Shown piece after piece: positions 28,437-32,373 of a stretch of 64,000 nt of DNA. A program made the translations under genes and the position numbers. Each line of letters starts with the position of its first letter. The first letter of the stretch is position 1. The notes under the pieces are model-generated. The model was not told the origin of the DNA and did no database searches. It saw only the letters and a list, made by a program, of their open reading frames with translations. Source of the stretch: Streptomonospora alba (lineage in GTDB: Bacteria; Actinomycetota; Actinomycetes; Streptosporangiales; Streptosporangiaceae); assembly GCF_000826685.1 (NCBI RefSeq), contig NZ_JROO01000021.1:1-64000 (forward strand), read 5' to 3'.

Positions 28437-28700
28437 CTACTGCGGCCTGGCGAACCCGCCGTAGTCCTGGGCGAGCACCTGCAGATGCGGCTCGTCGAAG
28501 GTGGCCGGGCCGCCGTGCGGGCCGGTGCTCACCTCGATCACCCAATCGACGTCCTCGGCGTCGTCCTCACCGGCCAGCATGACGCGATGCACGGCGCAGG
28601 GCTCGTACCCCTGGTCCTGCAGCTGCTCGGCCAGTTCCTCGGCGTCCTCCCGCTCGGAGAGCGTCACGAGCACGGTGCCCTCTTGTCCGGTCGCGGCCAC
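28437..28700 (-). CDS. Small acidic protein of unknown function
   Basis: An 87-aa soluble acidic protein: VLVTLSEREDAEELAEQLQDQGYEPCAVHRVMLAGEDDAEDVDWVIEV reads as an alternating beta-alpha-beta pattern, like a ferredoxin-fold or small Rossmann-type signalling domain. I do not recognise a family. GTG at 28700 is chosen because AAGGAGG lies 6 nt upstream. An ATG at 28727 has no ribosome-binding site and places that AAGGAGG inside the gene. It is divergent from ileS. Confidence 0.65.
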   Translation of the reverse strand: MAATGQEGTVLVTLSEREDAEELAEQLQDQGYEPCAVHRVMLAGEDDAEDVDWVIEVSTGPHGGPATFDEPHLQVLAQDYGGFARPQ

Positions 28701-28906
28701 GGACCGCCTCCTTTCGTCGATCGCCATGTGCTGCCTTACCCTCGGCCGCGTCCTGCGCAGCGGCGGGCCGCCGCGGAGACACGGCTCGGCACGCAAGTAT
28801 GCACCGAGCGATCGGCGGCGGCTCCCGCGAGGTCGGTGCGGCGGAGCCGCGCGGACCGCCCGGAGCCGCGGCGCGCACATCGCCCGAGCATGTCCCCGAG
28901 GTGGGC

Positions 28907-28912
28907 TATCCT
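28907..28912 (+). promoter_or_regulatory. Candidate -10 element for the ileS leader
   Basis: TATCCT at 28907-28912 precedes the T-box leader; the predicted start is about 28919. No good -35 is visible. Confidence 0.4.
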
Positions 28913-28918
28913 CGGGGC

Positions 28919-29166
28919 ACGGCACGGTGTGGATGGGGACGAGTACCTTCGGACACGGCCCAGAGCGACCCGGGGACGGTGGGAGCCCGGGGGTACGACC
29001 GTCGGGAAGATCACCCCGGAGCCGCCGGAAGAACGGCCCGGTGCGCGCTGCGCGCCGGCCCAGTAGACCCGGCAGCCGCGCAAAGCGAGAGGGGACGAGG
29101 CGGCAGGCCCGCCTCGCCCAAGGAGGGTGGTACCGCGGGGCCCGCAGCCTCGTCCCTCCATCAGGT
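28919..29166 (+). promoter_or_regulatory. T-box riboswitch (isoleucine) in the ileS leader
   Basis: The conserved T-box sequence AGGGTGGTACCGCGG is at 29124-29138; its TGGT matches the ACCA end of uncharged tRNA(Ile). The specifier codon is ATC (29010-29012) in the GGGAAGATCACCCC context typical of actinobacterial ileS leaders. GGGACGAGGC (about 29092-29101) can pair with GCCTCGTCCC (29147-29156) to form the antisequestrator/antiterminator base. Uncharged tRNA(Ile) should raise ileS expression. In actinobacteria this is usually at translation initiation, which is inferred here because no U-run terminator is seen. Confidence 0.9.
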
Positions 29167-29196
29167 CAAGCCGATGCCCTGGTGAGAGGTAGCCCG

Positions 29197-32100
29197 ATGC
29201 CCGACCACAGCGCCGCCCGTTCCTTCCCCGTGCTTCCGTCCCAGATCGACCTGCCCGCCACCGAGCACGAGGTGCTCAAGCGCTGGTCGGAGCGGAAGAT
29301 CTTCGAACGCTCCCTGGAGCAGTCGCAGGGCAACCCCAACTGGGTGTTCTACGAGGGCCCGCCCACCGCCAACGGCCAGCCCGGCGTGCACCACGTCGAA
29401 GCGCGGGTCTTCAAGGACGTCTTCCCCCGCTTCAAGACCATGCGCGGCTACCACGTGGACCGCAAGGCCGGCTGGGACTGCCACGGCCTGCCCGTGGAGG
29501 TCGCGGTGGAGAAGGAGCTGGGCCTCAGCGGCAAGAAGGACATCGAGGAGTTCGGCGTCGCCGAGTTCAACGCCCACTGCCGCGAGTCCGTGCTGCGCAA
29601 CGTGGGCGCGTTCACCGCCATGACCGAGCGCATGGGCTACTGGGTGAACATGGACGAGGCCTACCGCACCATGGACCCCGAGTACGTGGAGTCGGTGTGG
29701 TGGGCGCTCAAGACCATCTGGGACAAGGGCCTGCTGGTGCGCGACTACCGCATCAGCCCCTACTGCCCGCGCTGCGGCACCACGCTCTCCGACCACGAGC
29801 TCGCGCAGGGCTATGAGACCGTGACCGACCCCTCGGTCTACGTGCGCTTCCCCGTCACCTCCGGCCCGCTGGCCGGCCCCGAGCGGCCCACCTCCCTGCT
29901 GGTATGGACCACGACCCCCTGGACGCTGGTCTCCAACACCGCGGTGGCGGTGCACCCCGACGTCGCCTACGTCGTGGCGACCGACGGCGCCGAGCGGCTG
30001 CTGGTCGCCGAACCGCTGGTCTCCGCGGCCCTGGGCGAGGGCTGGACGCTGACGGGCGAGCGCTTCGAGGGGTCGGAGATGGAGCGCTGGACCTACCAGC
30101 GCCCCTTCGAGCTCGTCGCCTTCGACGAGCCCGCGCACTTCATCGTGCTGGCCGACTACGTGACCGTCGAGGACGGCACCGGACTGGTCCACCAGTCGCC
30201 CGCCTTCGGCGCCGACGACATGACCGTGTGCCGCGCCTACGGGCTGCCCGTGGTCAACCCGGTGCGCGCCGACGGCACCTTCGAGGGCGGCCTGGACCTG
30301 GTCGGCGGCACCTTCTTCAAAACCGCCGACTCCGCCCTGGTCGAGGACCTGCGGGCACGGGGGCTGCTGCTGCGCAACCAGCCCTACGAGCACAGCTACC
30401 CGCACTGCTGGCGCTGCCACACGCCGCTGCTCTACTACGCGCTGCCGTCCTGGTACATCAAGACCACAGCGATCAAGGACGAGCTGCTGGAGCAGAACGC
30501 GCGCACCAACTGGTTCCCCGAGAACGTCAAGGAGGGGCGCTACGGCGAGTGGCTGCGCAACAACATCGACTGGGCGCTCTCCCGCAGCCGCTACTGGGGC
30601 ACGCCGCTTCCCGTGTGGGTCTGCCCCGAGGAGCACTACACCGTCGTGGGCTCGCTGCAGGAGCTCGGCGGGCTGGCCGGGCGGGACCTCAGCACGCTCG
30701 ACCCGCACCGGCCCCACGTCGACGACGTGGCCTTCGACTGCCCGCACTGCGGCGGCCGCGCCGAGCGCGTGCCCGAGGTCATCGACGTGTGGTTCGACTC
30801 CGGCGCGATGCCGTTCGCCCAGTGGGGCGCGCCGCACCGCAACAACGAGGCCTTCGAGGCCACCTTCCCCGGCCAGTACATCTGCGAGGCCATCGACCAG
30901 ACCCGCGGCTGGTTCTACTCGATGATGGCGGTCAGCACCCTGGTCTTCGGCCACTCCTCCTACGAGAACGTGGTCTGCCTGGGCCACATCCTCGCCGAGG
31001 ACGGCCGGAAGATGAGCAAGCACCTCGGCAACGTGCTTGAGCCCATGGACGTCATGGAGCGCCACGGCGCCGACGCGCTGCGGTGGTTCATGGTCGCCAG
31101 CGGGTCGCCGTGGATGCCGCGCCGCGTGGGCCACGAGGCGCTGGAGGAGATCGTCCGCAAGGTCCTGCTGACCTACTACAACACGGCCTCCTTCTTCACC
31201 CTCTACGCCGGCGCGGGCGGCGCCTGGAGCCACGGCAGGCTCGCCGAGGCACCCGCGCCCCAGGACCGGCCGCTGCTGGACCGGTGGCTGCTCTCCGAGC
31301 TGAACCGTGTCGTCAAGGGCGTCGGCGAGGCCCTCGACCGGTTCGACACCGCCGGTGCGGGACGGCTGCTGACGACCTTCGTCGACGACCTGTCCAACTG
31401 GTACGTGCGCCGTTCGCGCCGCCGGTTCTGGGCGGGGGCGGACACCCCCGAGGGCAACTCGGCGTTCGCGACGCTGTTCGAGGCTCTGGAGTCGCTGACC
31501 CTGGTCATGGCGCCGCTGGTGCCCTTCATCACCGACCACGTCTGGGCGGCGCTGCGCCGGCCCGAGGCACCGGAGTCGGTGCACCTGGCGCACTGGCCCC
31601 AGGCGCGCGAGGACCTCGTCGACACCGAGCTGTCGGAGCAGATGGCGCTGACCCGGCGGCTGGTGGAGCTGGGCCGCGCGGCCCGGGTGGACTCGGGAGT
31701 GCGTACCCGCCAGCCGCTGTCGCGGGTGCTGGTGGGCGCCGCCGGTTTCGCCCGGCTCCCCGAACAGCTGCGCGACCAGATCGCCGAGGAGCTCAACGTG
31801 CAGGAGCTCGACCCGCTCTCCGCGGTGGACGGCGACCTCGTGGAGCACACGGTCAAGCCCAACTTCCGCGCTTTGGGCAAGCGGTTCGCCAAGCGCACCC
31901 CGCTGGTGGCCGAGGCGATCGGCGCCGCCGACGCCCGCGCGCTGGTGGAGCAGGTGCGCTCGACAGGCTGGGCCCACATCGAGGTCGAGGGCGAGCCTGT
32001 GGAGATCAGTTCCGACGAGGTCCTGATCAGCGAGCAGCCGCGGGAAGGCTGGGCGGTGGCGGCCGAGAGCGGCGAGACCGTCGCGCTGGACCTGGAGATC

Positions 32101-32373
32101 ACGCCGGAGCTGCAGCGCGCCGGTCTGGCCCGCGAGTTGGTCCGCCTCATCCAGGACGCCCGCAAGTCCGGCGGCCTGGAGATCTCCGACCGGATCGACC
32201 TGTGGTGGTCGGCCGAGGATCCGGTCACGGCCCGGGCGCTCCACGAGCACGAGCGCACGATCGCGGGAGAGGTGCTGGCGGTCAGCGTCACGGAGGGCGC
32301 CCCGCAGGGCGACGCCCACAGCACCACCTCGGAGGACTTCGGCGTAACGGTCCACCTGCGCAAGGCGGCCTGA
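29197..32373 (+). CDS. ileS: Isoleucyl-tRNA synthetase, type 2, with GXHH signature motif
   Basis: A 1058-aa class I synthetase charging tRNA(Ile). EGPPTANGQPGVHHVEA (HIGH region), GWDCHGLPVEVAVEKELG, the CP1 editing domain (TTTPWTLVSNTAVAVHPD), WFDSGAMPF and KMSKH (residues 605-609) are in order, with anticodon-binding and C-terminal domains after residue 700. The eukaryote-like pattern places it in the IleRS2 group. Residues 63-66 read GVHH, where canonical enzymes have HxGH. Cysteine pairs (CPRCG, CWRCH, CPHCG) suggest bound zinc. The ATG at 29197 follows GAGAGGTAGCCCG and lies behind a T-box. Confidence 0.97.
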   Translation: MPDHSAARSFPVLPSQIDLPATEHEVLKRWSERKIFERSLEQSQGNPNWVFYEGPPTANGQPGVHHVEARVFKDVFPRFKTMRGYHVDRKAGWDCHGLPVEVAVEKELGLSGKKDIEEFGVAEFNAHCRESVLRNVGAFTAMTERMGYWVNMDEAYRTMDPEYVESVWWALKTIWDKGLLVRDYRISPYCPRCGTTLSDHELAQGYETVTDPSVYVRFPVTSGPLAGPERPTSLLVWTTTPWTLVSNTAVAVHPDVAYVVATDGAERLLVAEPLVSAALGEGWTLTGERFEGSEMERWTYQRPFELVAFDEPAHFIVLADYVTVEDGTGLVHQSPAFGADDMTVCRAYGLPVVNPVRADGTFEGGLDLVGGTFFKTADSALVEDLRARGLLLRNQPYEHSYPHCWRCHTPLLYYALPSWYIKTTAIKDELLEQNARTNWFPENVKEGRYGEWLRNNIDWALSRSRYWGTPLPVWVCPEEHYTVVGSLQELGGLAGRDLSTLDPHRPHVDDVAFDCPHCGGRAERVPEVIDVWFDSGAMPFAQWGAPHRNNEAFEATFPGQYICEAIDQTRGWFYSMMAVSTLVFGHSSYENVVCLGHILAEDGRKMSKHLGNVLEPMDVMERHGADALRWFMVASGSPWMPRRVGHEALEEIVRKVLLTYYNTASFFTLYAGAGGAWSHGRLAEAPAPQDRPLLDRWLLSELNRVVKGVGEALDRFDTAGAGRLLTTFVDDLSNWYVRRSRRRFWAGADTPEGNSAFATLFEALESLTLVMAPLVPFITDHVWAALRRPEAPESVHLAHWPQAREDLVDTELSEQMALTRRLVELGRAARVDSGVRTRQPLSRVLVGAAGFARLPEQLRDQIAEELNVQELDPLSAVDGDLVEHTVKPNFRALGKRFAKRTPLVAEAIGAADARALVEQVRSTGWAHIEVEGEPVEISSDEVLISEQPREGWAVAAESGETVALDLEITPELQRAGLARELVRLIQDARKSGGLEISDRIDLWWSAEDPVTARALHEHERTIAGEVLAVSVTEGAPQGDAHSTTSEDFGVTVHLRKAA

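Follow-up and report, generated by a model that had tools for sequence, protein, structure and literature searches.

A probable housekeeping type 2 isoleucyl-tRNA synthetase of Streptomonospora with the swapped GXHH signature and a predicted T-box leader, and actinobacterial IleRS-like genes altered in both class I signatures

The ileS gene of the analysed stretch of Streptomonospora alba DNA (64,000 nucleotides, hereafter the window) is very probably the housekeeping type 2 isoleucyl-tRNA synthetase (IleRS2) gene of a Streptomonospora-like actinomycete, which carries the published exchange of the class I signature HxGH for GxHH and is preceded by a predicted T-box leader reading AUC that would raise its expression. 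The window gene is ordinary for its group, and the connection between GXHH and mupirocin is already published. More surprising than the window motif is a group of IleRS-like genes from other genomes of the phylum, in which both class I signatures are altered.

The gene occupies positions 29197..32373 of the forward strand, from an ATG at 29197 to a stop codon at 32371-32373, and forms a complete frame of 1,058 residues whose product scores 908.5 bits against the NCBIfam isoleucine--tRNA ligase model TIGR00392 (cut-off 621.4). Its closest solved relatives are type 2 enzymes, from Thermus thermophilus (915 bits) and Priestia megaterium (883 bits, over residues 23-1027), while solved IleRS1 chains reach at most 371 bits; the overall sequence, C-terminal domain included, is nearer to IleRS2 than to IleRS1. 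The sequence-only reading had placed Gly63-Val-His-His66 at the HxGH position, and this is borne out both by the letters themselves (GGCGTGCACCAC at 29383..29394 of the forward strand, codons GGC GTG CAC CAC) and by the alignments to solved IleRS2 structures, in which the register holds. The segment PPTANGQP, directly N-terminal to the signature (29359..29382, forward strand), lies opposite PPTANGLP of the T. thermophilus structure 1ile. In phmmer alignments GVHH stands column for column opposite the HVGH of 1ile, and it is in register with both the GVHH of the P. megaterium IleRS2 chain 8c8w and the HVGH of chain 8c8v. No canonical HxGH was found elsewhere in the window IleRS by phmmer alignment to the solved chains. 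With glycine at its first position and histidine at its third and fourth, GVHH belongs by its motif to the G/AXHH class, whose signature opens with Gly or Ala and has His as its third and fourth residues. At residues 605-609 (31009..31023, forward strand) the second class I signature is KMSKH instead of KMSKS, a feature absent from the sequence-only reading.

In GTDB, at least 588 relatives were confirmed, and the best 80 of them all combine GXHH (45 GAHH and 35 GVHH) with KMSKH. GVHH is also present in each of five further genomes read from the window's genus (L096, L107, L111, L113 and L120; L and G numbers designate loci and genomes). Among 97 of 100 genome relatives (104 rows; G061, G068 and G099, for which no N-terminal ileS match was listed, were left out), 89 have a GXHH copy, six have HYGH only and two have GVHT (G029 and G059). 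That GXHH is so usual in relatives argues for an inherited trait of the housekeeping enzyme and not for an acquired resistance gene. GXHH is also the commonest state in the Actinomycetota sample, in which IleRS1 and IleRS2 were assigned by regular expression: among 136 of 139 genomes (G108 gave no match at threshold, G111 and G215 fragments only), IleRS2 has GXHH in 76 and HXGH in 19, IleRS1 has HXGH in 17 and HXGT in 20, and GXHN, HXGN, AXHT and an unreadable motif occur once each. One locus, L261 (G232), contains an in-frame stop, its motif being unreadable and its type unreliable. The whole motif survey consists of individually retrieved genes, in 261 rows that include one gene twice (L182 = L323).

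The survey also brought up less common combinations. HXGT replaces HXGH in 20 of the 37 type 1 IleRS rows of the phylum sample (e.g., L191, L202 and L211). L120 (G005), of the window's genus, has GVHH with KMSKN instead of KMSKH. Two other IleRS2 combine GVHN with KMSKH (L310, G133) or HFGN with KMSKS (L293, G140). One genome, G031, has two GVHH ileS genes, of which one has KMSKS and the other KMSKH (L169 and L142). Four genomes have, beside a GXHH copy, a second ileS of the HYGH-KMSKS type: L170 (G018), L172 (G024), L177 (G016) and L188 (G057), the last a fragment that lacks the HxGH part. Identities among L170, L172 and L188 are 74-76%, and these second copies may reflect transfer or assembly contamination.

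According to the accessible text of Brkic et al. (2023, PMC10485003), G/AXHH is present in 86 of 379 IleRSs and is tied to mupirocin hyper-resistance, so that the association which the sequence-only reading had drawn is indeed in print. The same source and Cvetesic (2016, PMC4861432), as far as both are accessible, give a mupirocin Ki of about 10 mM for the IleRS2 of Streptomyces griseus, which has a non-canonical motif. This enzyme shares with the window protein its type, its actinomycete origin and a non-canonical motif, the two being likened by motif; other Streptomyces orthologues among the matches listed show 65-67% identity to the window protein, the X residue being Ala or Val (GAHH or GVHH). 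The IleRS2 of Deinococcus radiodurans, of the same G/AXHH class but with ALHH and from another phylum, has a Ki of 6.6 mM, and its canonical mutant one of 8.1 uM. By comparison, Ki values of 1.08 and 0.20 uM are given for the IleRS2 of P. megaterium and T. thermophilus, which share fold and type with the window protein over a full alignment and have HVGH where the window has GVHH (all in the accessible text of PMC10485003). There, an IleRS1 with the swapped motif is described as devoid of activity. The mutants behind these Ki values and structures are from enzymes described with KMSKS, whereas the window enzyme has KMSKH (PMC10485003, in its accessible part). By analogy with these published orthologues, the window enzyme is most likely catalytically active and mupirocin-resistant. 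Since the published swap is the default in the group, mupirocin tolerance would be expected of actinomycete genomes even where no resistance gene has been acquired. A partial literature search found nothing relevant in print on mupirocin with Nocardiopsis.

Why the swap has been kept is a separate matter. It could have been retained for a reason other than mupirocin, such as neutral drift once helix alpha-1 had shifted permissively, tuning of catalysis or resistance to other natural IleRS inhibitors, mupirocin resistance then being a by-product; we give this explanation slightly less than an even chance. The spread of GXHH across many families of the phylum, in the 76 of 136 genomes given above, is in its favour, as is the small number of changes on the tree (9 HIGH-state changes over 256 rows, five of the 261 rows having been dropped as too short), which is what an old inherited state would give. 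Against it, the accessible text of PMC10485003 describes exchanges of the motif that raise or lower the Ki for mupirocin by two to three orders of magnitude, and canonical-to-swapped mutants that lost up to ten-fold in kcat.

The housekeeping nature of the window gene is also indicated by its copy number and surroundings. In a protein search of the assembly, the only ileS match above the curated cut-off is the window gene itself; weaker ileS-like matches on two other contigs correspond, by their best-scoring models, to ValRS (C46) and LeuRS (two matches on C33). The gene is thus the sole ileS in this assembly, which comprises 5.9 Mb in 110 contigs, is 97.5% complete and could have a second ileS in a gap. 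Neither of the two sequence findings that would have told against the sequence-only reading, a canonical HxGH elsewhere in the protein or a second canonical ileS, was encountered. The genes around ileS encode a pseudouridine synthase, the signal peptidase II LspA, a DksA/TraR zinc-finger protein, DivIVA, SepF and FtsZ, and are chromosomal housekeeping genes; moreover, the orthologue of Streptomonospora sp. PA3, the closest named genome among the matches listed, is 93% identical to the window protein. An acquired mupirocin resistance gene of the plasmid MupA/MupB type would be consistent with the matches of both models to the window protein (774.7 bits for MupA and 752.7 for MupB). These scores are far below the NCBIfam cut-off of 1900 bits, and together with the position of this only ileS beside cell-division and lspA genes and its close Streptomonospora orthologue, they rule out this identity, which we consider extremely improbable. 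A frameshift, sequencing error or misalignment as the origin of GVHH can be dismissed as practically negligible in probability, given the open frame of 1,058 residues, the unambiguous register and the conservation of G-x-H-H in all of the 80 closest loci (best 80 of at least 588).

The sequence-only reading had also put the housekeeping ileS under T-box control, and an isoleucine-type leader is indeed predicted upstream of it. At the Rfam gathering score no T-box was matched in the whole window. A search of 601 bases (28700-29300) with a relaxed threshold returned two pieces of RF00230, which follow the order of the model on a single strand and are both below the gathering score of 93: a stem I part at 28927..29022 (forward strand, 40.1 bits, E 1.9e-7) and a part with the T-box sequence and antisequestrator (AGGGTGGTACCGCGG...) at 29120..29157 (forward strand, 19.8 bits, E 0.033). 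The specifier region, as read off the RF00230 match, is AUC, an isoleucine codon (GGGAAGATCACCCC). The string GGGTGGNACCGCG is present upstream of all 80 closest orthologues (best 80 of at least 588 relatives). One pattern finds AUC followed by A in the expected leader region of 71 of them, and a less strict pattern finds it in the remaining nine. Translational T-boxes of ileS have been known in Actinobacteria since 2005, and sequestration of the Shine-Dalgarno box has been proposed for them (Seliverstov 2005, PMC1262725, accessible part). The leaders described there lie upstream of ileS and, like that of the window, have no terminator-like U run. By analogy with orthologues, accumulation of uncharged tRNA-Ile would lead to more ileS expression, with control most likely exerted at translation initiation.

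The second signature, KMSKH, is chiefly characteristic of the window's own class. Among the 261 aligned rows, KMSKH or RMSKH accompanies GXHH in 108 and GVHN in one; it is absent from all 61 HXGH and HXGT rows, of which one is gapped at this site. GXHH is combined with KMSKS or RMSKS in 66 rows, and outside the window's class it is mostly paired with KMSKS. We considered KMSKH as a possible compensating change for GXHH, which these counts suggest and do not establish: kinship alone can account for the pattern, which on the tree comes down to only 4 to 5 independent pairs, a number with which a sign test cannot reach significance. A partial literature search found no published account of KMSKH in IleRS.

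In seven Actinomycetota genomes, IleRS-like genes encode about 1,030 residues and have GVHT or AVHT at the HxGH position and EMHGS or EMHGN at that of KMSKS (L183 in G029, L182/L323 in G059, L321 in G291, L322 in G310, L324 in G326, L325 in G268 and L318 in G202). They were first seen in two relatives, as ileS genes with neither PPTANG...HH nor KMSKS. A search with one of them recovered six close copies with 74-100% identity among 297 genomes of the family (in G029, G059, G268, G291, G310 and G326), the next matches having at most 43% identity. Five of these genomes have GVHT with EMHGS and G326 has GVHT with EMHGN. The seventh genome, G202, belongs to another family of the phylum, and its gene combines AVHT with EMHGS, at about 69-71% identity. 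FastTree places the GVHT rows in a single group (support 99), with a warning from the program of long branches meeting there. By inspection of open frames, the neighbourhoods of these genes differ from that of the window ileS, and no T-box string was present just upstream of them in the loci checked. No account of EMHGS-type or IleRS3 strings was found in print by a partial literature search.

In five of the seven genomes (G029, G268, G291, G326 and G202) there is one ileS match only at E <= 1e-90, with weaker ileS matches in G029, G268, G326 and G202 and assemblies that are 77-98% complete and possibly error-bearing drafts. G059 and G310 have a second match at this threshold. Second ileS-like open frames beside the EMHGS type (L185 and L189 in G059, L330 in G310, L331 in G291) have worn motifs: GLHQ with VMGRD in G059, GIHH with PMSSG in G310 and PMSKR in G291. 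The second copies of these three genomes show 38-56% identity to ordinary enzymes of the GXHH-KMSKH type, apart from one match among themselves (51%). We offer the reading, which is not proven, that the EMHGS type displaced the old ileS copy, which then decays. The broader proposal that in Actinomycetota the HxGH swap was permissive for a wider erosion of the signatures, that in some lineages the IleRS altered in both makes Ile-tRNA, and that in one genus it displaced the ancestral GXHH-KMSKH gene, of which decaying remains are left, seems to us evenly balanced between right and wrong. If the EMHGS-type protein is catalytic, it would activate with ATP without the lysines of KMSKS. More generally, the natural variants GVHT, AVHT, GVHN, GLHQ, KMSKH and EMHGS could show which changes of the class I signatures are tolerated in an essential enzyme. 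Two further loci have GVHH with an altered KMSKS, reading EMHYS in L317 (G194) and DMHYS in L316 (G214).
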